DNA from: a virus | Length of the DNA stretch: 21,886 bases | Virus record (IMG/VR): IMGVR_UViG_3300032282_002808 | Coordinates: 1 to 21,886 of that record | Strand: one strand, 5' to 3' | Part shown: one piece after another, positions 9,249 through 21,763 of the stretch | How the letters are laid out: each line of letters starts with the position of its first letter | Numbering within the stretch: position 1 is the first letter of the stretch | The notes under the pieces: generated by a model | Databases searched by the model: none | The model's input: only the letters and a program-made list of their open reading frames with translations | What the model was told of the DNA's origin: nothing | Program-made: the position numbers and the translations under genes

Positions 9249-10362
9249 TTAAACCCCACCTCTGAAGAATTGAATTAGCAACATTAGCCGTTGTTTGACG
9301 AGCATTGTTTGTAAACTGCCAACGTGGATCTTTACGCAAATCATTCTCAAACTGCCACAAAGATTTAGCCTGAGCTTTACCCGTGTCAGGGTTGCGACCA
9401 GACAAGGCTTCACGAATGTGTGGATCAAACAAGTTAACATCAGTTGGGTTTAGTTCAAGCAATGTACTCATACGTTGAACGTATGGGGAAGCAATGTCCG
9501 AAACATTTTGACCGGCTTTAATTTGATCAGCATAAACAGGAAAAGCCGAAGCGGCCTGCGTCCTGATATCGTTCTCATAATCTTGGGCTGTTCTAGTACC
9601 ACTAACAACACCACGGGCAGCGGTCGAATACCACTCGTCATTATAAGACACACCGTTAAGTTGTGCGAGTTGACGCAAATTTTGTTGTGCAGTACCAGCC
9701 GCACCACCCATTACACCATTATGTTCAGTGACATAACTGGATAAAAGCTTTGTTACATCCTGACCTTTAAGACCAAAACGGTAAACTTGGTTAACAGCCC
9801 TGGTTAAAGTGTTGCCCGTAAGTGTTGCACCAAGTTGTGCGGCCTGTGCAACCAGATCGTTTTTAACACTGTTCCAGTCCTGGGTGTAGGACTTTGGATC
9901 AGTTAACCTTTTGATCTCGGTTAAACGCCAAGTTTCTGTGTTGGTTTTGTACCACTTGGTGTTTCGAACCTGTGCAGTTAAATGTTCTGGAGACCAACCT
10001 TCAGCAACTCCACGCCTAAACAACGCAGCAAGTTCAGGGTAGGTTGTCAAAATTGCTTTATTCCAACCAACATCAGCAAGGTTCAAAGTATCTCTGGTTG
10101 TTGTTGGTGTGGTACCAGCAATAGATGGAGCAACTGCTGGTACAGACGATTGTGCCGCTTGTTGTTGTGCTACACGATTAGCATGGATTTGGTGCGCTGT
10201 GGGTTGCGCAGGGCCAGTTCCATAGGTTGATGCAGGATCGCTCATCCACCAATCACCGTAAGTTGCGCTACTTGAATCATCAACAGGCGCAATAGAACTA
10301 CTACCAGATTGACCAGCCAAAACAGTGGCAACAGCATCCCTATTAGCGTTACTTCCAGCCAT
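9241..10362 (-). CDS. Helical putative internal virion / ejection protein B (373 aa)
   Basis: A disordered N-terminus (1-95, Ser/Gln/Ala/Pro-rich, with ATYGDWWMSDPAST) is followed by helical modules. The motif VRNTKWYKTNTETW (132-145) recurs near the C-terminus as LRKDPRWQFTNN (342-353). Between them lie LTRAVNQVYRFGLKG, QLAQLNGVSYNDEWY and YENDIRTQAASAFPVYADQI. The start overlaps the previous stop as TAATG, and the end overlaps the next gene by eight bases. No enzymatic signature is visible. Position after the giant protein and the shared motif with the 332-aa neighbour support a structural internal role. A tail-needle or measuring function is an alternative. Confidence 0.5.
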   Translation of the reverse strand: MAGSNANRDAVATVLAGQSGSSSIAPVDDSSSATYGDWWMSDPASTYGTGPAQPTAHQIHANRVAQQQAAQSSVPAVAPSIAGTTPTTTRDTLNLADVGWNKAILTTYPELAALFRRGVAEGWSPEHLTAQVRNTKWYKTNTETWRLTEIKRLTDPKSYTQDWNSVKNDLVAQAAQLGATLTGNTLTRAVNQVYRFGLKGQDVTKLLSSYVTEHNGVMGGAAGTAQQNLRQLAQLNGVSYNDEWYSTAARGVVSGTRTAQDYENDIRTQAASAFPVYADQIKAGQNVSDIASPYVQRMSTLLELNPTDVNLFDPHIREALSGRNPDTGKAQAKSLWQFENDLRKDPRWQFTNNARQTTANVANSILQRWGLSG

Positions 10363-11168
10363 TACACATTCACCGGACTTTGAATAGCTTTCATTAGTGC
10401 ATCCATGTATGTTGTTTCAGTTTGATACTCGGCATAATCCTTAGCAGATTTAGCATAATCTGAAGTAAACTGGCCGGAAGCAAGTTGACTTACACCACCA
10501 GTACTGGTTGAAGAACTTGTGGTATTTCTAGCACCTGTATTAATTTGTGCAACTGAACCATTAACATTAGCAAGTTGTGAAGTGCCAGGATTTGATACCT
10601 CTTGCCCAGTTGTTGTTGTGTAACTGGGGTTTGCTTTTTCCATACTATTCAAAGCATTGGTAAAAAGTTTAATTTCTTTAGCCGTTGGATCTCGACCAAG
10701 CAACTGTTGAGAAGCGTTACTTAAAGCACCTTTGGCTTCTTCAGATGTGCTAATTGTTAAATTTTTCTGAACATTGTTTATGTTTGTTAAATTTATTTGT
10801 TGATTTTGTGAAGTTTTTGAACCAATAAGATCAATCGCTGCAAACGGATCAAGTCTGTAATAACCAGAAGCATAAGCTTTGCTTGCTGCACCAACAGCTT
10901 TTTCCCAATTTTTTTGAACAGTTTCAGGATCACTAACATCAAGACCAGAAGATGCCATACGATTAACAATTTTTTGGTATTCAATTGGGTTGGTTGCTTG
11001 CAACGTGTACAAATATCCAACAACCTGTCCAGCTGTTTTTACTGAACTATCTACTGGTTTTCCATCTGGGCCGTAAGTGGATTGACCAACAGTGAAAATG
11101 AGTTTATCTGAACCTGTTGGTGCAAATCCTAAAGTTACAGCCGCAGCTATTCCACTTGTGTCTGCCAT
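10362..11168 (-). CDS. Helical putative internal virion / ejection protein A (268 aa)
   Basis: The N-terminus (1-45, TLGFAPTGSDKLIFTVGQSTYGPDG) is beta-like or extended. The rest is helical: AGQVVGYLYTLQATNPIEYQKIVNRM, then SNASQQLLGRDPTAKEIKLFTNALN...EKANPSY at residues about 150-183. The last 80 residues are Ser/Thr/Asn-rich and probably flexible before a short final helix. The LLGRDPT...EI...LN..E..NP pattern occurs, to my knowledge, in internal virion proteins of actinobacterial phages, where the genes also follow a giant protein. It is coupled on both sides by TAATG overlaps. The function is inferred from context only. Confidence 0.5.
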   Translation of the reverse strand: MADTSGIAAAVTLGFAPTGSDKLIFTVGQSTYGPDGKPVDSSVKTAGQVVGYLYTLQATNPIEYQKIVNRMASSGLDVSDPETVQKNWEKAVGAASKAYASGYYRLDPFAAIDLIGSKTSQNQQINLTNINNVQKNLTISTSEEAKGALSNASQQLLGRDPTAKEIKLFTNALNSMEKANPSYTTTTGQEVSNPGTSQLANVNGSVAQINTGARNTTSSSTSTGGVSQLASGQFTSDYAKSAKDYAEYQTETTYMDALMKAIQSPVNV

Positions 11169-14100
11169 TAGTTTACCGCCGTCCCAACATTTTCAAGACG
11201 AGAAAATTCTCCGTCAAGTTGTCGATAATAAATTTCACCAAACCTGGGATTTTCATTAATCAAATTATTAACAAAAGAATTCCATGCCTCATTGATATAA
11301 ACATATTTTTGTGAAGAATCAAGAACGCCAGCATTGTAATTTGATGGCAAAACATCAACAATTTTTTGTCTTTCTTCAATGTATTGCTGAAGTTGTTTAA
11401 CAGGTATAGCGGAATTTGGATCTTTGTTTGACTCAGCCTGAACACTTGGGTTTGAAATAATTGTTTTTAAACCCTCAACTGTACTGGGATAATTTTTACT
11501 ACCACCAAAATCAATATCATTTCTAAAAGCAGGATTTTCTGCTTTAAGACTGGCAACAAAAGTTTTAAAACCCTCATTCAAAGCAGGCCATTGAGTAATT
11601 GAAGTTAAACCATTTTCATTCAATAAAGCCTGAACCTTTTGACGTTGCTGAATGTATTGCCTATAACCTTCTTCAACCTGTGTTTGATCAATTGCATCAG
11701 TAGCTGAACGATTACCCCGATAAGACTCAATGGTTCCAGGTATCTTATTTTTAATTTGCCAGTTATAAACAGCTGAATTAAAATCTTGTTTGCCGCTAGG
11801 ATCATTAACAAGCAAACCAATAAGTTTAGGATTTGATCGAGCAATCTCTAAAATAAAATCCTTAGGGTATGAATCAAGTTTTTTCTGAGCAAACAATGTT
11901 GGATTAATTCCTGCATTGTTTTGTGTTACAGAAAAAGTGTAAGCCGCTGCTGTATTTTTTGATCGAAGCCAAGGTGAAAAATCGTTAATAAATCTTGTTG
12001 TTGCATCAAGTTGAGTTTGTTGACCAAAAGTTGGTGATTGTGGATCCTTGTCTAAAGAAACAATTGTTCCCTGCTTTTCGTATTCCCTATATTTGTTGAC
12101 AAGGAATTGTTGTCTTGGGTCAATAATGTTTGTTGAAAATGGTAAAGAAATTGAACCAAGAATTTTTACAATAAAAAGTTTATCAACTTTTTTATCAACT
12201 TCCACAATGTCCTGTGGAGTCAAGTAAGGACTTTGACCAGAATTAATTTTTTGCTCAATTTGATTTACGAGCATTAAAGATGTTGCATTGGCCCGTGTTG
12301 TACCAGACTCATCATTGGAATTAAACCATTGGCGAATCCATGATGGCAAAACAGCTTTAAACGGATTTTGAGGTATTTGTGCTTTCTTGGGAATAAACCC
12401 ACGATCAGAGTTTGAAGGAAAAATATATTTTCCTAATTCTTGAACAATAAAATTGCTTGGTTCCCTATTCGCAAACCAGGCAAAGGGAAGTGCAATCGTT
12501 GGGCCGCTTGATGGAAGCAAAGGAACATTACCTTGAAGTACCAAGTTAAAGGACGTAATGGGTGGTGCAAGAACAAACCTATCATCAATGCCAATAATTT
12601 TTTTAAAAAATTTTGGTACAGGCAAAACAACACCATATTTTGCATTTGGAAAAGCAGGTAAAACATTTGGATTGTTGCCGCTAACATCACCACTATCAAG
12701 GTTTACAATTATACCTGTTTTTGCTGGCATTTGAAAAAGATCATAAGCGTAAACAAGTGTTTGTGGTTTGCGACCAATAATTGCAGCCCAAGTTCTTACA
12801 GTATTATTTGATGCTGCAATGAATGGGGAAATCACTCTTAAAGCATCGGCACCATTAGAATAACGATCAATAGTGTAAATCCATTTTTTAACATCTTGAA
12901 CTGCACCAAGTCGAGCCGTTCTACTGAGATCAGCAACTTCAGCTTCAGTAAGTTTACTTACATCAACGCCTTGTTTGTGCAAAGCATTAAGAATTTCTTG
13001 GTACCTGTTTCTGAAAGAAATTGCACCAAAAGGAAGCCTTACAAGACTGTCCTCAAGGTCTGAACCAATTTTTTTAAACATATAGTCAACAGTTACTTTG
13101 CGGGTTTTTTGCAAAGCAGCAATTGCTGTATTGTTTGAAACGGCTTCCTCAACGCGGACACCATGAATTGTTCCAATTAGTTCTGGGTCTTGAATAATGT
13201 TTCTAAATTCTTCACCACTAAAATTTTTAGAACGCAACTGATCAATAATTTCTTGTGGCAAACCAGACCATTTTGACCCAGGTGTTCCAGTAATGTGTTT
13301 CTGAACTTGGCGTTCAATTTCTAAAAATTTGTCAACAGCTTGTTCAACAGTTGCTTGTTGACCTGGTTCAATATGGTAGCCAAGACCATATTTTTTTCTA
13401 AGGTTAACTGCATCACGGTTGGTTGAAGTAAACCAGCTTAGTAATTGGTTTCGATCTTCGCCGGAAATTAAACGCCTAGCAATTGGATCACTAACAAGTT
13501 GTTGAACATCTCTTGCATAAGAATCAAAATAATATTTAAGATTTTCTTCAAGTTGTGCCTTAGCACGCCGTTCGCTTATTTTGCCAGCTTCAATACCGGC
13601 TTGATCAATAACAGGTGGGTCAATTGGATCATTCCAAGTAATTTTTGCTGAATTAACTTTTTCATCCGGCCTTAAAGCCCTTTGTGTTGTTCTTTCAGCA
13701 GAAATAACAGATCGAACATCAGCAGCATATTCTGGGTTATACATATCACCTACGGTTGAAACTGGTGTTCCTCTCCCTTGTTCTGGAACAAGACGAAGTT
13801 GACCATTTTTTTCAACAACTTTTAAACTACCCGTTGCAGAGTATTCGGGATTTGCAACCCTTGCATTTGCTGCAATTTTTTCAGCATCAGTTGCAAAACC
13901 AACACCATGTTTTGCATTAACAAAAAGTGAGTTAACACCAGCTAAGCGATTCTTTGCCCATGCGTGCATTGCCTCTGGGCCAATTTGTGAAGCCATTTGT
14001 GTTAAAACCCCAAGGGCTGCTAGACGACCATAGGATTCTGAAATGTTTCTTGGTGCAAAACCACCACGCAAAAGAATTGATGGTTTCCAAAAATTGTCAA

Positions 14101-16138
14101 TAATAAAATTCGTTGCTTCAACTGATCGGTTAACAGCAACACCAGCTGCTCGATTAACTTTACCTAAAACACCTAGTTCATTAAAAGATATGGGATCATA
14201 TTTGTGAAATTTTCTGATATATGAAATGTCAAGTAAAGGATAACCTGCATCAAGTTGTGAAAGAAGAAGGGCATCGTGAACAATGGTTACACCATCATCG
14301 GCAATGTAATAACCATTTTTTGCCGTTTCATTAACAACTTCTTCTTGTTTATTGATAAGTTTGTTAACGGCGTGATCTAAAGATTCCCCTTCATAACCGA
14401 GTTCATCACGCAAAGTTGCTCGAACCCTGGCTTCATTAAATTGTTTAGCAAAATCTCTTTTTTCACTATCCGTAATTGCAAGTTGATAGTTTTCCATCCA
14501 CGACAAACGTTCTTCTGGTGTCCAACTTTTAACATCATAAGCTGCTGCTTGAATTTCTTTTCCACCATCAGCAATGTTTGTTCCTTTAAAAACAATAAAG
14601 TTTGCTGGTCTAACTTGCCCAACATGGCGAGCAATAGCAATTGTTCTGGCAAGTGGTGATATTTGATATTTGTCAACAACCCATGATCCGTCTGTTCTTT
14701 GACGTGAAGCTTCATGACTTGTTGGATTGTTTAAAATGTTTGGTTTTCCACCAAGGGAAAGCTCCCCTCTAACCCTTGCCATATCAGAATATATATTTGC
14801 AAGGTACTTATTTTTTGGCCCCATCTCGGCACCAATAAGACTCATGTTAAGCCCTGTTCCAACGTAACCAGAGGATTCACCCAAGGCTTTAGCCATTGCT
14901 TTATCAGCAAGCAAATATTGATCCAATAATTCTTTTGTTACTGGTGGGGCATCGGCAATTGGATTAGTAGCGCGCTGCATTGCCTCAGTAAGTATTTGTG
15001 CATTGTTTTGAATAAATTCCCTTGATGTTTGATCACCCAATTGTGAGGCAATTAAATGACCAACAAGTTCTTTTGGTGTTGCCTCAACAGCATCAGTTGA
15101 ACCAACTTTTATAAACAAATCTATTGCTGCTGCAAGATCATCAGGGTTGGTTGCTTTCCAACCGTTTTCACCAACAAGCTCCCTGATTTGAGCAAAATTC
15201 ATGCTGTCTGAACCGTCACCAGTTTTACCAACAATGTTTTGGAGTTGTGTACCAATACCAGAATTACTATCACCAGCAGCAAAGTTTTTTGCTTCCTGGG
15301 CCAATTTTGGTGCGCGAGCTTGATACCAAACTGGCGACCATTTTCCAAGAATTTTTTTATCAGTACCCGTTGCTGTTCTATAAAAATTGTGGTCAGCAAA
15401 AACTGATGCACCTTTACCAACCCAAATTAAAGGATCAAGAAGATATGTTGAAGCATCAGTTGTTCCAGAAATAAAATTTGCCCATTTGTTATTTATAAAA
15501 CCATGTTGAAGAACACCATTACCATCCGTGTATGTTAATTCGGAATTCATGGCTATTGCTCGATTAACTTGTTCCCTTGGTGATTCGGCATTTTTATCAC
15601 CAAAAAAACGATTAGCCGATGCAACAAGTTCTTGACCTGGTGACAAGTATCCTGCCGCATTCCATACGTCCCCAAGTCCTTTACCGGAACTTGTTAGCTG
15701 ACGGCCACCGGAAAGATAATCAAGTGTTAACATTCCAGCTGTTAAGCCGTGTTGAACTAATTGAACTGGTTGCATTGCAACATCGGTTAATGCACCAATA
15801 TTTGCAAGACCAGATTCTTGTAAAGCTTGAGGGTTATAATTTTCTTCAGCTGGTTTTGTTTGTGGTTGAACCATTTGTGCGTATGGATTGCCTGTTTGTT
15901 CTTGAACTGATCCAGCAGCAATGGCACCAATAGGGTAAGCGGCGGCTTTAACAACTTCTCCAAGTGCTGTTTGAGCAGTTGATTTGTATGCGCTTACCAC
16001 TTGACTAATATCATTAATGTTTCCTGCTGGTCTTAAAGCACCAGCAGTTCCATTGGCAACACCTGGACCCCCAAGGTATCCACCATAATTTTCAACAGCA
16101 TTTTTTGATGCTGAAACAATTGTTCCCCATAAACTCAT
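11168..16138 (-). CDS. Giant virion protein, probable internal/ejection protein (1656 aa)
   Basis: By far the largest gene. The protein is mostly helical, with an N-terminal Gly/Ala-rich region (1-80). A conserved-looking block FWKPSILLRGGFAPRNISES lies at 683-702, and another at 1103-1126 (ISPFIAASNNTVRTWAAIIG). A Pro/hydrophobic stretch follows at 1158-1218 (NVLPAFP...LQGNVPLLPSSGPTIALP). These pieces recall giant structural proteins of actinobacterial phages. The C-terminus (1492-1638) is a tandem duplication. I see no clear lysozyme, transglycosylase or polymerase catalytic motif. Codons are strikingly AT-rich (two sampled 60-base lines are 30% and 32% GC). It starts at an ATGA overlap with the 48-aa gene. 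A T7 gp16-like or N4 RNAP-like ejected protein is plausible by size only. Confidence 0.6.
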   Translation of the reverse strand: MSLWGTIVSASKNAVENYGGYLGGPGVANGTAGALRPAGNINDISQVVSAYKSTAQTALGEVVKAAAYPIGAIAAGSVQEQTGNPYAQMVQPQTKPAEENYNPQALQESGLANIGALTDVAMQPVQLVQHGLTAGMLTLDYLSGGRQLTSSGKGLGDVWNAAGYLSPGQELVASANRFFGDKNAESPREQVNRAIAMNSELTYTDGNGVLQHGFINNKWANFISGTTDASTYLLDPLIWVGKGASVFADHNFYRTATGTDKKILGKWSPVWYQARAPKLAQEAKNFAAGDSNSGIGTQLQNIVGKTGDGSDSMNFAQIRELVGENGWKATNPDDLAAAIDLFIKVGSTDAVEATPKELVGHLIASQLGDQTSREFIQNNAQILTEAMQRATNPIADAPPVTKELLDQYLLADKAMAKALGESSGYVGTGLNMSLIGAEMGPKNKYLANIYSDMARVRGELSLGGKPNILNNPTSHEASRQRTDGSWVVDKYQISPLARTIAIARHVGQVRPANFIVFKGTNIADGGKEIQAAAYDVKSWTPEERLSWMENYQLAITDSEKRDFAKQFNEARVRATLRDELGYEGESLDHAVNKLINKQEEVVNETAKNGYYIADDGVTIVHDALLLSQLDAGYPLLDISYIRKFHKYDPISFNELGVLGKVNRAAGVAVNRSVEATNFIIDNFWKPSILLRGGFAPRNISESYGRLAALGVLTQMASQIGPEAMHAWAKNRLAGVNSLFVNAKHGVGFATDAEKIAANARVANPEYSATGSLKVVEKNGQLRLVPEQGRGTPVSTVGDMYNPEYAADVRSVISAERTTQRALRPDEKVNSAKITWNDPIDPPVIDQAGIEAGKISERRAKAQLEENLKYYFDSYARDVQQLVSDPIARRLISGEDRNQLLSWFTSTNRDAVNLRKKYGLGYHIEPGQQATVEQAVDKFLEIERQVQKHITGTPGSKWSGLPQEIIDQLRSKNFSGEEFRNIIQDPELIGTIHGVRVEEAVSNNTAIAALQKTRKVTVDYMFKKIGSDLEDSLVRLPFGAISFRNRYQEILNALHKQGVDVSKLTEAEVADLSRTARLGAVQDVKKWIYTIDRYSNGADALRVISPFIAASNNTVRTWAAIIGRKPQTLVYAYDLFQMPAKTGIIVNLDSGDVSGNNPNVLPAFPNAKYGVVLPVPKFFKKIIGIDDRFVLAPPITSFNLVLQGNVPLLPSSGPTIALPFAWFANREPSNFIVQELGKYIFPSNSDRGFIPKKAQIPQNPFKAVLPSWIRQWFNSNDESGTTRANATSLMLVNQIEQKINSGQSPYLTPQDIVEVDKKVDKLFIVKILGSISLPFSTNIIDPRQQFLVNKYREYEKQGTIVSLDKDPQSPTFGQQTQLDATTRFINDFSPWLRSKNTAAAYTFSVTQNNAGINPTLFAQKKLDSYPKDFILEIARSNPKLIGLLVNDPSGKQDFNSAVYNWQIKNKIPGTIESYRGNRSATDAIDQTQVEEGYRQYIQQRQKVQALLNENGLTSITQWPALNEGFKTFVASLKAENPAFRNDIDFGGSKNYPSTVEGLKTIISNPSVQAESNKDPNSAIPVKQLQQYIEERQKIVDVLPSNYNAGVLDSSQKYVYINEAWNSFVNNLINENPRFGEIYYRQLDGEFSRLENVGTAVN
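11225..11665 (-). repeat. Tandem C-terminal duplication in the giant protein
   Basis: Residues 1492-1545 (YRQYIQQRQKVQALL...LNEGFKTFVASLKAENPAF) and 1583-1638 (LQQYIEERQKIVDVL...INEAWNSFVNNLINENPRF) align with few gaps. Shared positions are Y-I-x-x-R-Q-K, L, N-E-x-(F/W)-x-x-F-V, L and E-N-P-x-F. The second copy lies about 91 residues after the first. Divergence is high enough that this is an old protein-level repeat, not a recent DNA duplication. Confidence 0.8.
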
Positions 16139-16281
16139 GGTTTACTCCATCCACCAAGAATAGAAGCCAACTTGTAATGGTCATCATTGTTCATTGGAAG
16201 GTGAGCTAAATCCCATGCGGCGGCAACATCTTGCAGCCCAACTGCTTGAGTGTAAAGTGCAAACCGATCAAAGAAATCCAC
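16135..16281 (-). CDS. Small GTG-start protein between stop/start overlaps (48 aa)
   Basis: An easily missed gene that fills the gap between the 158-aa gene and the giant gene exactly. Its GTG shares the G of the preceding TAG (TAGTG), and its TGA overlaps the giant gene's ATG (ATGA). The product starts VDFFDRFALYTQAVGLQDVA (Met in vivo), contains AAWDLAHLP, and ends with LASILGGWSKP. It is rich in aromatic and amphipathic helix residues, unlike random sequence. There is no SD, so it should be translated by re-initiation. No family is recognised. An assembly chaperone or minor portal-associated protein is a guess from position. Confidence 0.7.
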   Translation of the reverse strand: MDFFDRFALYTQAVGLQDVAAAWDLAHLPMNNDDHYKLASILGGWSKP

Positions 16282-16757
16282 TATTGGTACGCTTTCAAAT
16301 ACATAACAATGTTTCGAAGTGTTTGTGAAGATTCAGCCGAGTTTGCTCGTTCCTGAATTAACGGCAAATAGGGCAAAAGTTTTTGAATATCAGCATCCGC
16401 TGTCAAAGGTTGCTGTGGGGCACCAGGCCCAGGGCCAGCATTAACACCAGCAGTGACAGGTTCATCGGGACGCTGTGTTGGGGCTGTAAGGGCTGTTGGT
16501 GGTGTCATTGGTGTGACTGGCGCGGCGGGGGGTGTTTGTCCGTTAGAAGGCAACACAGGGCTTCCTGATGGCATACCATCTTGAGCCATAGTTGCACCAC
16601 CCTGAATATCATGCATTTCCTGCCGATCACCATAATTGGCAGCAGGTACATCCCTAATAGGTTGGCCAGGGCCACCATCAGTGCGTTGCGATAGTGACCC
16701 TGGCCCTGAAACAGGAGCAGGGTTGGTGGGCTTACGGTATCCACCTTGTTGCGCCAT
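16281..16757 (-). CDS. Pro/Gly/Gln-rich low-complexity protein with helical tail (158 aa)
   Basis: Residues 1-115 are low complexity: Pro, Gly, Gln, Ala and Thr dominate (SGPGSLSQRTDGGPGQPIRD, TPPAAPVTPMTPPTALTAPT), so the chain is probably disordered. Residues 118-158 form a compact helical end (DADIQKLLPYLPLIQERANS, SQTLRNIVMYLKAYQ). That is a plausible docking domain. SD-like TAGGT lies eight bases before the ATG. Composition resembles the Pro/Gly tail of the portal, but I see no alignable homology between them. The function is unknown; a portal-to-internal-protein linker would suit the position. Confidence 0.75.
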   Translation of the reverse strand: MAQQGGYRKPTNPAPVSGPGSLSQRTDGGPGQPIRDVPAANYGDRQEMHDIQGGATMAQDGMPSGSPVLPSNGQTPPAAPVTPMTPPTALTAPTQRPDEPVTAGVNAGPGPGAPQQPLTADADIQKLLPYLPLIQERANSAESSQTLRNIVMYLKAYQ

Positions 16758-16766
16758 TGCGTTTAC

Positions 16767-16961
16767 CTACTTTTGAATAGTTTTTTCTTTTGGTGTGTGA
16801 GCCAAGTGTGCTAGATGAGCCGTATGAACAACGTGCAACTGATGTGCTGCATGAGCACTCAACGTAGAACTACCAGTTGGACTGGTATTAACATTGGGTT
16901 TCGGTACAGCGTTACCACCAGCTAGTCGACCAGGCCCATTGCTAGGTGGGTTAATTGCCAT
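16767..16961 (-). CDS. Small protein with seven His at exact three-residue spacing (64 aa)
   Basis: The N-terminal 33 residues are Pro/Gly/Asn-rich. The remainder holds LSAHAAHQLHVVHTAHLAHL, with His at 37, 40, 43, 46, 49, 52 and 55, a perfect H-x-x series. The segment from NV at 23-24 aligns without gaps to residues 6-35 of the neighbouring 123-aa protein. It starts by TAATG overlap with that gene. The His ladder could chelate divalent metal or line one face of a threefold-type helix; neither is shown. No enzyme signature is present. The gene sits in the five-gene cassette between portal and giant protein, so a particle component is likely. Confidence 0.8.
   Translation of the reverse strand: MAINPPSNGPGRLAGGNAVPKPNVNTSPTGSSTLSAHAAHQLHVVHTAHLAHLAHTPKEKTIQK
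16797..16853 (-). repeat. (H-x-x)7 tract in the 64-aa protein
   Basis: Nineteen residues (37-55) carry His at every third position seven times, with small or hydrophobic residues between (A, Q, L, V, T). The DNA copies are not identical (codons vary between CAT and CAC, spacers differ), so the periodicity is maintained at protein level and is not simple slippage of one triplet unit. Confidence 0.85.
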
Positions 16962-17332
16962 TACTTGCCAGCCTTACGCTTTGCTGCATTTCGTGCGATC
17001 AAACGCAACGCGTCATTTTCAGAAATAACAGGCTTGGTTGAATTGCCAGACAAAGAACTACGAAACATTGCTTTAGAAGGTGTTACAAGCCTTGAAAGAT
17101 TAGCCCTGCTTGGTTTGTTTTGCGATGAATTATAAATTTTCTTTGTTTCACGCTTAACAGTGGCACCAGCAACTGAGGCATTTCCTGCTGCTTTTTTCAT
17201 GACTTCTGCTTTTTGCATGACTTTTGCGTGTTGCATATGAAGTTCGTGTTGAACCGCAGCCTGATGCTTTGCATGAGCACTCAAATTGCCATCGGCACCA
17301 GTGCTAACACTTACATTCGCTTGCTTTTCCAT
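16961..17332 (-). CDS. Basic protein with His-ladder N-terminus (123 aa)
   Basis: Residues 6-35 carry the same element as the 64-aa neighbour: NV, nine residues, LSAHA-x-HQ, then V and His at 29, 32 and 35 (also His 20 and 23). After it comes a strongly basic helical region (KVMQKAEVMKKAAG, VKRETKKIYNSSQNKPSRAN) and a basic C-terminus (ALRLIARNAAKRKAGK) that may contact DNA. SD GGGAG sits eight bases before the ATG. The gene precedes its shorter paralog with a TAATG overlap. The lengths differ because only the N-terminal segment is shared. A DNA-associated virion protein is a reasonable guess; function unknown. Confidence 0.8.
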   Translation of the reverse strand: MEKQANVSVSTGADGNLSAHAKHQAAVQHELHMQHAKVMQKAEVMKKAAGNASVAGATVKRETKKIYNSSQNKPSRANLSRLVTPSKAMFRSSLSGNSTKPVISENDALRLIARNAAKRKAGK

Positions 17333-17350: not shown

Positions 17351-17521
17351 TTAGCGTGGTGAACGCTTGTCGTTGTTAGGTGTGCCAGGAACTTGAACAC
17401 CAGTAGCAGTAGTGCCATGAGTTTGAGTAGGGGCGTTCTCCCAATCAACGGGATTACCAGCCTTGATCGGCTGCGCTGTATTAACCGGCGCAGCAGTGCC
17501 TTGCTTACCAAAATCAGCCAT
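17351..17521 (-). CDS. Small hydrophilic protein right after the portal gene (56 aa)
   Basis: A short gene with an excellent ribosome binding site (AAGGAG, nine bases before ATG) starting 22 bases after the portal stop. The product begins MADFGKQGTAAPVNTAQPIK, continues with NPVDWENAPTQTHGTTATG and ends NNDKRSPR. It is hydrophilic, Pro/Thr/Gly-rich and probably disordered. No known family. The strong SD and tight fit between portal and the 123-aa gene argue that it is real. It may be a portal-associated or head-filling minor protein; that is inference. Confidence 0.75.
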   Translation of the reverse strand: MADFGKQGTAAPVNTAQPIKAGNPVDWENAPTQTHGTTATGVQVPGTPNNDKRSPR

Positions 17522-17542: not shown

Positions 17543-19417
17543 TTACGCCGGTTGGCGACGAATGACGCTAGCCGAAAGATTCGGTGCGCCCGATTGGGAC
17601 AAACCCGCCAAAAGGGTTTGCATATCTGGGCGACCACCAGGAGCCATACCCGCTTGACCAGGTGCAACTCCTTGCGGTAAACCAGTTTCTTGCATACCAG
17701 GTGGCATACCAGAAGGTGTCCCCTCAGGGACGGATGCGCCAGGAGTGCCAAGTTCGTTAGGCATCTGCGTACCGGCGGTTCCGTTTTCCGGCTGAGGGGA
17801 AGGCGGTGGGGCAAAAGCGTCAGCAATTGCCGTCTCAATAGGAGTACCCTTTTTACGGGACTCAATTATTGCTGCAAGTTTAGTAACAACATCAGTAGGA
17901 TCTTGGCCCTGTGCCGCCATTGAAGGAATGGACTGCACATAAGCTGCAACACCCTGGAATCCCGCTTCACGCAAACGCTCAATGTCAATGAGTTCTTCCT
18001 CGGTTTTAACATTCATTGAGTTTGGCAAGTTGCGTCGAACAAACGACTTGGAAACAAGATCAGCACCCAAAGCTTGCAAAGACCAAACAAGTGCTCGGTT
18101 AGGATCAAGACCAGCCATCAAACCATAAGTAACCTCAACACCAGTTTCAGTACCAATGTCGCGTTGCGGAACATATTTGATGGTGTACGAGTTTCCGTTC
18201 TGCTGACCTTTGATTTCTTTACTTTCCATTGGCCAGTAAAGCGTGTCCATTTCAAAACACATTTGAATAATTTCAACAAAAGTATCAGCCAAAACATCCT
18301 GTGCTGTTTTAATTTGGGTATCAAACCCACCCATCAAAGCCTGCACACCACGACCAGTGATGATACTTGCATCAATGTTTCCTTGACGACCCTCAGGGTA
18401 ACGGGCACCGTTACGCATTTCCTGATCCAAAGCCTGAGCTTGAGCAAAAGCAGACTGTGGCATTTCAATGGGGGCGCGTCGAACGTTCTGCGGTTCACGG
18501 GTACGAATGATTGCATCCCCACCAATGGGGAAATGCTGAATGTCTGACGGCACAAACAATGGTGCCTCAACAGCTTTGTGTGCTGCTTCCAAAGAAAGCA
18601 AAGCAAACTTGGCACGAGCCATCTGAACCCAAAGCACATCATCAAACTGCCCACGTTGCTGACCATCAAAAGAAGGTTTGCGTGCAACCACAATGGGGCA
18701 ACGACCCAAAGGGTTGGGGGCTTGAGCTAAAACAAGATTGGAACGTTCAGGGATAAACATGATTTCTTGTTCATCATCAACCCAACGAATAACCTCAAGC
18801 ATTGTATCAGTGGTACCAAACACAACACCCTGGCTTGGATTCTTACCACGAATCTTATCAGCATACTCAGGGAACATGGCACAAAGTTCTGAAGTGGGTT
18901 TAAGAAAACGCCTAGCAAAAGCAGTGCAATTACCCCAACGATCAAACTCTGGGTAAGAACCCATTGGATCTTCAACCGTAATATGTGGACGCTTGTTGCT
19001 GAAGTTGGGTTCAACACGAAAAGGAAGGAAACCATAAGTGATGTACTGGTCTGCACCAGCATACATTTCACGACCAAGCTTAGAGGCCATCACATACCAA
19101 TTAGCAATGATGGTTCGCTTCTCAGCTTTGGTTCGCTTACTATCATCAACCATGTTAGTTTGTGAACAAGAAAACGTTGGTAACGGTGCAATCACTTCAG
19201 CAAGGTCACGCGCAACCGTGTCAATAAAGTTTGAAACAATAGGCTTAGGCCAGTCACTAGGAAACAAACCAGGAAAAGCCTCATCGTAGTTACCACCACG
19301 AACAGAAGCCACCTTATTCATGCGACCGTCACGTTCAGCGTAACGTGATTTTAATACGTCAAAACGGCGGCGAATAGAATTATCCGCGTACTGCGCCATA
19401 GGCGTATCTTCTGCCAT
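17543..19417 (-). CDS. Portal protein (624 aa)
   Basis: The dodecameric DNA-entry ring protein, expected from its place after the large terminase, its length and its sequence features. These include PKPIVSNFIDTVARDLAEVI (near residue 60), a clip/stem region with VEDPMGSYPEFDRWGNCTAF, and LVLAQAPNPLGRCPIVVARK. The helix QMARAKFALLSLEAAHKAVE and ITGRGVQALMGGFDTQIKTA follow. The last 90 residues are Pro/Gly/Met-rich and probably disordered, unusual for the family and likely inside or outside the ring. I take the ATG at 19417, which overlaps the terminase stop as TGATG; a GTG one codon upstream is possible. No SD is visible, consistent with coupling. Confidence 0.85.
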   Translation of the reverse strand: MAEDTPMAQYADNSIRRRFDVLKSRYAERDGRMNKVASVRGGNYDEAFPGLFPSDWPKPIVSNFIDTVARDLAEVIAPLPTFSCSQTNMVDDSKRTKAEKRTIIANWYVMASKLGREMYAGADQYITYGFLPFRVEPNFSNKRPHITVEDPMGSYPEFDRWGNCTAFARRFLKPTSELCAMFPEYADKIRGKNPSQGVVFGTTDTMLEVIRWVDDEQEIMFIPERSNLVLAQAPNPLGRCPIVVARKPSFDGQQRGQFDDVLWVQMARAKFALLSLEAAHKAVEAPLFVPSDIQHFPIGGDAIIRTREPQNVRRAPIEMPQSAFAQAQALDQEMRNGARYPEGRQGNIDASIITGRGVQALMGGFDTQIKTAQDVLADTFVEIIQMCFEMDTLYWPMESKEIKGQQNGNSYTIKYVPQRDIGTETGVEVTYGLMAGLDPNRALVWSLQALGADLVSKSFVRRNLPNSMNVKTEEELIDIERLREAGFQGVAAYVQSIPSMAAQGQDPTDVVTKLAAIIESRKKGTPIETAIADAFAPPPSPQPENGTAGTQMPNELGTPGASVPEGTPSGMPPGMQETGLPQGVAPGQAGMAPGGRPDMQTLLAGLSQSGAPNLSASVIRRQPA

Positions 19418-21339
19418 CACATCACCATTTCGTTTCGGCTACTTGCCCACTCATTCAAATCAACAACAGAACGTTGACTCATTCGACGGGGAGAGGAGTA
19501 AGGGTTCTTGGTGAACCAACCAAGATCATTAGCATTCTGACCAATAGTGTTTCTTGCAGACAATTCACAAAACCACAACGCCATAACAAGGTCAGTTTTG
19601 TTACGGGTTTTAGGTTGCCAAGAAACCAACTGTTCAACAAGGGCCTTCATACCCTCAGTGCCCTCAACAAGTGGCAACTCAATCTGGTTATCCCCCATTG
19701 AACGCGCAACACGGTTCTTATCACTAGCTGTTTCAATGGTGCCAAACAACGGTGCCATACTTGCCACACCAAAACCATCATCCCACTTGTTGATACGGGA
19801 CGTGTAGTGTGGTTTAACAATACAACCACGAGTATTCAAATACTTATTCAAGTTTTCATCGTGAACCAGATACAACTGGAAAGCATTCGATTCAATAACC
19901 CACTCAGATGGACGATACCTGTCAGTCCAAGAAGTAACAAGATCATAAATCTTTGAAGGTGTTGCACCACTCATACGAACAGCATCAAGGATGTAACGTT
20001 TACCTGACTGCCTATCCACTGCCATAGCAATCGCTGCCGTGTCTTGGTCGGCAGCAGGGTCAAGTCCGCAAATGATGTAGAAACCTTCGGGGTTAGCTGG
20101 GTGTCCAGCGGACTTTCCGTTTAGTGGCCCTGGGCGGCGCATACCGTTTACGCTTCCGCGTACAGCAGCTGGGTGGAAGATTGCATCTTCGGCAACGTCT
20201 TGTTGTTGGTAAACCATTGACCAGATGCGGGGGCCAACAGCACCACGCACGTTGTCAAGGTGTGGCCCATCCCACCTTCGGTACAAGCCTTCCTCATTGG
20301 GTTCTTCACCTTCTGAACCTTCAAAAGGCACTTCGGCTTTGGGCCAAAGTGTTAACCAGGTGTCTGAGTTACCTGAACCGTAATCTAAAACAGCTGGTTG
20401 TGAGAAACGTGTCCAAGGTGAAACACCTGAAACGTAGTGATCACCGTTCATTAGTTGTTGATACAGGTCGATTGGGGCGACACGGGTGCCAATAACGAGT
20501 AGTTTACCCGTGGGGGCTAGTCGTGAACTAACTTCGATACGAAGCCAGTCCAGGTGCTTCTCCCACTCACCAGCGTTAGCCAACACCACCGCGTCGTCAA
20601 CAATGATCAGGTCGGCACGGGCACCATAAATCTGGCCACCAATACCAATGGCTTGAACTGTTGGGTCTTTTTCTTGGCCGTCCCGTTCCTCGCCACCCAA
20701 ATAGATTTGGTTGGCAGTCCAAGAGTCAGCGTTCTTTTTGAAACCACCCTCAGGGCTGAAGTTGGCTTGCAATTTGGCGTACGCTGGGTGTGTCAGTCGC
20801 TGCTTGATACCGTACAAGAACTGCTGTGCCATCTTCTGTGTCTTAGACACGAGGATCACACGAACATCAGGGTTCTTACAAATCCGGTACACCACATAGT
20901 CAATGGAAACGGTCTGTGACTTGGCGTGTGCAGGTGGGGTGTTGATCAGAATACGACTAGCTTGACCTGGTTGGTACTCAATGGCCGGATGGAACAGTTC
21001 CGGTTCTCGGCCTTCAAGCAGATCAATCCAGCCCTGCTGATGGGGGTAGGTTTCCCTGTTGAGGAACGTGCGTCGAAACGACGCGAAATCCCCAATAGGT
21101 TCCCTGCCAGTGGTTTTTACTTCTTTAAGAACAGCACGAGCGTTGTCCACGTCCCGTTTGAACTCTGGGTGGTCGCGGCGTGCAGCCTCATACCAAGATA
21201 GGGAACGCCCAACCTTTGCCAAAGCGGTTGGGTTGTTTGAACCTGTTGCCACCTCAGCAAGAAACATTTTGCGGGCCTCAGCGGGGGAAAGGGCTGAACT
21301 GGGTTTGCGACCAGAGCGGCCCTTCTTACCCTCAGTCAT
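19417..21339 (-). CDS. Terminase large subunit with HTH-like N-terminus (640 aa)
   Basis: The packaging motor. The ATPase part has a Walker A-like NTPPAHAKSQT at residues 133-143, Walker B LIIVDDA at 244-250 and the coupling strand LVIGTR at 281-286. The RNase H-type nuclease shows three acidic positions: D427 in ICGLDPAADQDTA, E483 in EWVIESN and D583 in NKTDLVMAL. Residues about 31-72 (NPTALAKVGRSLSWYEAARR, then HPEFKRDVDNARAV) look like the helix-turn-helix found in terminase small subunits and related proteins, and no separate small-subunit gene is evident upstream. It starts with a TAATG overlap. It cuts concatemeric DNA and pumps it through the portal. Confidence 0.92.
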   Translation of the reverse strand: MTEGKKGRSGRKPSSALSPAEARKMFLAEVATGSNNPTALAKVGRSLSWYEAARRDHPEFKRDVDNARAVLKEVKTTGREPIGDFASFRRTFLNRETYPHQQGWIDLLEGREPELFHPAIEYQPGQASRILINTPPAHAKSQTVSIDYVVYRICKNPDVRVILVSKTQKMAQQFLYGIKQRLTHPAYAKLQANFSPEGGFKKNADSWTANQIYLGGEERDGQEKDPTVQAIGIGGQIYGARADLIIVDDAVVLANAGEWEKHLDWLRIEVSSRLAPTGKLLVIGTRVAPIDLYQQLMNGDHYVSGVSPWTRFSQPAVLDYGSGNSDTWLTLWPKAEVPFEGSEGEEPNEEGLYRRWDGPHLDNVRGAVGPRIWSMVYQQQDVAEDAIFHPAAVRGSVNGMRRPGPLNGKSAGHPANPEGFYIICGLDPAADQDTAAIAMAVDRQSGKRYILDAVRMSGATPSKIYDLVTSWTDRYRPSEWVIESNAFQLYLVHDENLNKYLNTRGCIVKPHYTSRINKWDDGFGVASMAPLFGTIETASDKNRVARSMGDNQIELPLVEGTEGMKALVEQLVSWQPKTRNKTDLVMALWFCELSARNTIGQNANDLGWFTKNPYSSPRRMSQRSVVDLNEWASSRNEMVM

Positions 21340-21533
21340 TACTTACCCTTCTTAGCAGCCTTCTTAACCCCAGAAACCTTCTTCAAATTAGGGTTAGCCT
21401 TAACCGCTTTAGGCGAAGCCTTACGCGCAGCGGAAGCCAAAATGGCTGAAGCACCCTTCTTCGAAATGCCCTGCTTCTTAGCAATACCAGCAGCCACCTT
21501 AGCAAACCCAGGATGCGTTTTCTTACCAGCCAT
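21339..21533 (-). CDS. Very Lys-rich small protein (64 aa), DNA-binding candidate
   Basis: About 17 Lys and one Arg in 64 residues with almost no acids. The middle, GISKKGASAILASAARKASP followed by KAVKANPNLKKV, is a recurring pattern in small proteins of aquatic and actinobacterial phages as far as I recall. I take the ATG at 21533, with GGGG about ten bases upstream; a GTG at 21539 would add two residues but has too short a spacing to that motif. The stop overlaps the terminase ATG (TAATG). A nucleic-acid-binding role, perhaps in packaging, fits charge and neighbour. A histone-like or small-terminase substitute is speculation. Confidence 0.75.
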   Translation of the reverse strand: MAGKKTHPGFAKVAAGIAKKQGISKKGASAILASAARKASPKAVKANPNLKKVSGVKKAAKKGK

Positions 21534-21535
21534 AA

Positions 21536-21763
21536 TCACTTACCCCGCTTAACCGACTTGCCAGCAACCTTCTTAACAGGCACCGACTTCTTAACCTTCG
21601 AAACAAGACGAACATCCTGCTTCTTATCCTGAGCCACCGTCTTATTCATCTTATTCATCTTAGAATCAGCCTTGTTAAACGCCGCGCGTTGAGCCGGTGT
21701 TAGCTTTTTCGTCAAAGCAGCATTCTGCTTCTTATCAGCTTTCTCATTAAACTTCGCAGCCAT
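21536..21763 (-). CDS. Very Lys-rich small protein (75 aa)
   Basis: About 20 Lys and 3 Arg against five acidic residues. The N-terminal part is helical (FNEKADKKQNAALTKKL, PAQRAAFNKADSKMNKMNKT), and the C-terminal 25 residues are a basic tail with KVKKSVPVKKVAGKSVKRGK. It is the first gene of the minus-strand operon, with only a weak GGAT before the ATG. Charge suggests nucleic-acid binding. It is similar in composition but not alignable to the 64-aa protein that follows. It could bind DNA during packaging or in the head; unknown otherwise. Confidence 0.7.
   Translation of the reverse strand: MAAKFNEKADKKQNAALTKKLTPAQRAAFNKADSKMNKMNKTVAQDKKQDVRLVSKVKKSVPVKKVAGKSVKRGK

Follow-up and report, generated by a model that had tools for sequence, protein, structure and literature searches.

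A histidine at every third position is known from the His-Xaa-Ser (HxsA) repeat peptides, whose tripeptide His period goes together with radical SAM maturases. For H-x-x-H repeat proteins and small His-rich virion proteins of phages, a literature search returned nothing relevant. Helices rich in Ala, Leu and His are represented by the designed LAH4 peptides, which contain four His and switch their membrane orientation with pH (PMC8160934). The described phages with which the present DNA may be compared are Streptomyces Beephvirinae (WRightOn, Immanuel3) and LanE43-AprF5, whose isolation host is the freshwater actinobacterium Planktophila LanE-43 (PMC10202952).

The window analysed here is a stretch of 21,886 nucleotides (positions 1 to 21,886 of the IMG/VR virus record IMGVR_UViG_3300032282_002808). 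Its portal protein is 41–45% identical to those of Streptomyces Beephvirinae and ct2KA10 records, one of which is named LanE43-AprF5, and its genes follow the order terminase, portal, 56 aa, 123 aa, 64 aa, 158 aa, 1656 aa, more late genes and the major capsid protein (Table 1). In WRightOn the order is the same; its portal gene is separated from the gene of its protein of about 1650 aa by five small ORFs, of which one is phrog_8200-like by sequence. The window thus holds a module of the Beephvirinae type, in which homologs of the portal, phrog_8200-like and phrog_10618-like proteins follow the terminase in the same order, and the portal kinship together with the WRightOn gene order indicates that the host is probably actinobacterial. 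Unlike in the window, the small ORFs between the portal and phrog_8200-like genes of Beephvirinae and LanE43-AprF5 carry no His ladder. Scanning for promoters and terminators yielded no signal above chance; the ATG of the 123-aa ORF is preceded by GGGAG, and the stop and start of the 123-aa and 64-aa ORFs overlap by one base. Two further small Lys-rich ORFs (66 and 75 aa) are located upstream of the terminase gene at 21339–21763.

Table 1. Features at and around the two ladder ORFs (window coordinates).
Feature	Position	Strand	Description	Basis
64-aa ORF	16767..16961	(-)	Pro/Gly-rich N-terminal half, His ladder helix at residues 34-56, short basic tail	ORF call; homolog in nearest contig (L082)
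His ladder LSAHAAHQLHVVHTAHLAHLAHTP, residues 34-57 of the 64-aa protein	16791..16862	(-)		sequence; repeat test; AlphaFold2 helix 36-55
123-aa ORF	16961..17332	(-)	basic (22 K/R, 7 D/E), shorter broken ladder near N terminus	ORF call; no counterpart in nearest contig
Broken His ladder LSAHAKHQAAVQHELHMQH, residues 17-35 of the 123-aa protein	17228..17284	(-)		sequence; AlphaFold2 helix 14-69
18-nt tandem repeat	17188..17236	(-)	encodes six-residue unit prolonging the helix directly after the 123-aa protein's ladder	2.7 copies, 87% matches
56-aa ORF	17351..17521	(-)	Gly/Pro-rich; upstream edge of variable slot	clade-conserved
158-aa phrog_8200 family protein	16281..16757	(-)	downstream edge of slot	phrog_8200 E 9e-22
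Portal protein	17543..19420	(-)		phrog_104 E 3e-19
1656-aa protein, phrog_10618	11168..16138	(-)		counterpart by gene order: 1644-aa gp10 of phage WRightOn

Sequence comparison with relatives indicates that the slot between the portal and phrog_8200 genes is hypervariable. Where the portal is 89–90% identical, the interval from the 56-aa to the 158-aa gene is occupied by a Lys-rich ORF of 85–122 aa, by a 30-aa ORF, by both or by almost nothing, and no His protein or ladder was found in the slot of these relatives. The nearest contig, L082 (portal 98% identical), lacks the 123-aa gene and possesses a 63-aa homolog of the 64-aa protein; the overlap between the stop and start codons of the ladder gene and the gene before it is present in both contigs. 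The 56-aa gene of L082 terminates in ...CACAAGGCTAAGTAATGG. In the window it is the 123-aa gene that precedes the shared downstream gene, and it terminates in ...CGTAAGGCTGGCAAGTAATGG; the C terminus of the 56-aa protein of the window is changed relative to that of L082. These gene ends are compatible with the 123-aa gene having been inserted or lost at a short stretch of similarity.

The slot ORFs of L084, L085, L089 and L094 (85–122 aa) are differing Lys/Ala/Pro-rich small ORFs, most of which end in RRASY or similar, and resemble basic DNA-binding tails. Kinship of the 123-aa protein with the slot proteins of relatives was considered and rejected, as the best candidate, the 85-aa ORF of L084, was not significant (20/1000 shuffles over eight ORFs). 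In more distant relatives (L003, L007, L042, L045, L053 and L227), a slot ORF of 170–180 aa starting with MTTI(I/L)(A/G) lies just before the phrog_8200 gene and is, by appearance, a putative Ntn-hydrolase (proteasome-like).

The His residues of both ladder proteins are confined to the ladders. The 64-aa protein has all seven at residues 37, 40, 43, 46, 49, 52 and 55, exactly as originally predicted, and the 123-aa protein has all five in one phase at residues 20, 23, 29, 32 and 35; these positions were also read correctly, but the strict period of three claimed for them does not hold, since residue 26 is Ala and the ladder is therefore broken. With the number of His fixed, such arrangements would arise by chance with probabilities of 7e-8 and 2.5e-6, respectively, under a null that ignores how readily low-complexity segments originate. 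The nearest rival to a functional reading of the ladders is incidental low complexity, in which a short Ala/His unit expanded in a young ORFan and the ladder has no function tied to the His spacing, and we regard it as a serious possibility that nonetheless falls short of an even chance. It is favoured by the ladder of the 123-aa protein, which runs into the 18-nt tandem repeat. The non-His codons of the ladder of the 64-aa protein, on the other hand, are devoid of a 9- or 18-nt DNA repeat signal (p 0.84 and 0.53), which argues against both fresh slippage and a fresh tandem repeat.

The two ladder segments align without gaps, as the original prediction of a pair of paralogs had it. The ungapped local score of the 64-aa against the 123-aa protein is 75, compared with a mean of 28 for full shuffles (0/3000 reach 75), 44 for shuffles with His fixed (1/3000) and 50 when local composition is kept as well (8/3000). 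At the DNA level, TTGAGTGCTCATGCA (15 nt) is identical in both genes and is followed by one differing codon and then by CATCAG in register; the alignment thus goes beyond shared His and composition in the shuffles as well as in the nucleotides. The sole match of the 123-aa protein in L082 is the ladder gene itself (E 0.002). The shared DNA, the alignment statistics and this match together make a common origin of the segment likely, so that the two segments are probably homologous; no similarity of the two proteins was seen outside them. The tandem arrangement of a short and a long form, also predicted, was seen only in the window: L082 carries just the short form, and neither form occurs in the wider clade.

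The 63-aa homolog in L082 is 82% identical to the 64-aa protein and keeps all seven His. It is the sole homolog found, and in it the ladder is intact. Between the window and L082 the gene shows dN of 0.10 and dS of 0.31, indicating moderate purifying selection; its dN/dS of about 0.3 exceeds the 0.17, 0.09 and 0.04 of the 56-aa, 158-aa and portal genes, and this weaker constraint relative to the neighbours speaks for incidental low complexity. The 24 ladder codons differ by three synonymous changes and one replacement, and the retention of the seven His alongside synonymous changes in ladder codons speaks against it. Since the 64-aa protein has one homolog and the 123-aa protein none, the case for constraint on the ladder rests on four codon differences, and these hint only weakly at selection on the His spacing. 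A homolog search of IMG/VR with both proteins gave no confirmed relatives (its tblastn step may mask low complexity), and neither protein had a Pfam, PHROGs or NCBIfam family match above chance. For the 123-aa protein, no PDB match was found and PHROG matches at E 0.02–0.06 were rejected. Homologs are thus very narrowly distributed, as incidental low complexity would have it, and the two ORFs are probably young, lineage-specific accessory genes.

Ladders of this kind are also widespread for trivial reasons, another point in favour of incidental low complexity. When viral DNA was scanned for seven His codons spaced three apart, at least 120 stretches were recovered, and the scan was uninformative because of repeats. 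Among the matches listed, only 8/85 loci had a ladder ORF that exceeded all others there in length and reached 60 aa; the other viral ladders were mostly off-frame readings or low-complexity linkers, and real proteins carry them as low-complexity segments. The DNA pattern common to both ladders (A-H-A-x-H-Q-x4-H-x2-H) gave 65 viral matches, of which one, L082, is a true relative, and in genomes the same pattern fell in unrelated proteins or off-frame readings. In favour of a functional ladder, starts resembling S-A-H-A-x-H-Q are found in exported cellular proteins; judged by eye, that of Henriciella is cupin-like and that of Comamonas a membrane protein. His-rich linker runs like those of the window, such as AHQLHVMHEVHEEHLAHLAH or SAHAQHQAHSEHSGH, are found in a phage protein of 1210 aa and in the Henriciella cupin-like proteins; unlike the small ORFs of the window, these are large unrelated proteins, and the likeness is probably convergent. 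The phage protein is encoded at 9448–13080 of contig L175, matches phrog_21715 at its N terminus and contains an internal run, AHQLHVMHEVHEEHLAHLAHQHAEHDAHTAHEAHEAHEAHE, that is very similar to the window ladder, again probably by convergence. A match of the 64-aa protein in WRightOn (E 1e-4) is antisense to the 1644-aa gene in which it lies and is interrupted by a stop; it was taken as chance.

AlphaFold2 predicted an alpha-helix at residues 36–55 of the 64-aa protein (pLDDT about 89 mid-helix, pTM 0.33) and at residues 14–69 of the 123-aa protein (pLDDT about 86–90 across the ladder, pTM 0.27), with the best confidence in both proteins over the ladders; the input comprised two sequences and one sequence, respectively, and inputs this small bias Ala-rich segments towards helix. 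Judged from these models, the ladder stretch is probably an ordinary alpha-helix. The fold first proposed, a metal-binding virion element built as a 3-10 or polyproline-like helix or a triangular beta-solenoid in which the His form a single row, is at odds with the predicted helices of both ladders, and the segment shows neither Gly/Pro periodicity nor a beta-rich pattern and is short for a solenoid. Spaced three residues apart on an alpha-helix, successive His are offset by 60 degrees, and seven of them thus wind once around the helix as a left-handed spiral stripe, which speaks against a single row unless metal binding alters the backbone. It is only in folds of the proposed type that period three aligns His in a single row, and the hydrophobic moment of the 64-aa protein's ladder rises from 0.07 at 100 degrees to 0.27 at 120; even so, we consider such a fold quite improbable.

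The same geometry bears on the comparison with LAH4. The window ladder is likewise a predicted Ala/Leu/His helix of about 20 residues, whereas LAH4 has its His on one face and Lys at its ends. One could imagine a pH-switched, membrane-active helix acting like LAH4, nearly neutral and membrane-inserting with uncharged His and cationic once these are protonated, which could serve DNA entry or lysis. The 20-residue Ala/Leu/Val/His helix with strings such as HLAHLAH would suit this role, and in several relatives of the phage, a small ORF containing a single hydrophobic stretch immediately precedes the phrog_8200 gene. However, with the i, i+3 spacing spiralling around the helix and a moment of 0.07 at 100 degrees, His on one face of an amphipathic alpha-helix was not found, and the ladder of the 123-aa protein is hydrophilic and continues into a Lys-rich helix. 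LAH4 is therefore a lead only, and a membrane role by this analogy appears unlikely.

With HxsA, the ladder shares the tripeptide His period, but its H-x-x units lack Ser at the third position. None of the ten window proteins scanned against Pfam matched a radical SAM or maturase family, and the 123-aa protein gave a weak match to the maturase HxsB (E 0.02); His-Xaa-Ser repeats with HxsB or HxsC nearby, as in an HxsA system, were not found.

From these results, a tentative reading, to which we give somewhat less than an even chance, may be put forward. The two ORFs would be small accessory genes, presumably expressed late, in the hypervariable slot of an actinobacterial phage. The 64-aa gene would be older than the split from L082, and the 123-aa gene would have been inserted in, or lost from, one lineage, its N-terminal segment being derived from a copy of the ladder or both segments coming from one source. 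The predicted Ala/Leu/Val/His alpha-helix, with His at every third position forming a slanted stripe around it, would serve as a contact helix through which the protein attaches to a partner, to another copy of itself or to nucleic acid, with binding that might change with divalent metal or protonation, and the flexible Pro-rich part of the 64-aa protein or the basic part of the 123-aa protein would do the rest. The locus may, in short, be a recently acquired accessory-gene cassette with a helix responsive to metal or protons; association of the two proteins with the virion is something we only infer. The boldest version, in which a helix with His at every third residue, present as duplicates in two small proteins of different build, would act as a metal- or proton-gated element of the particle or of its DNA delivery and would lack any described phage counterpart, seems to us highly unlikely.

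At present, the locus mainly warns that viral DNA often contains period-3 His runs for trivial reasons. It also illustrates the turnover of small accessory genes at one portal-adjacent slot in actinobacterial phages, as well as the ability of a His ladder to pass from one small gene to its neighbour. If the response to metal or pH is true, the ladder would offer a simple natural helix for studying such a response.
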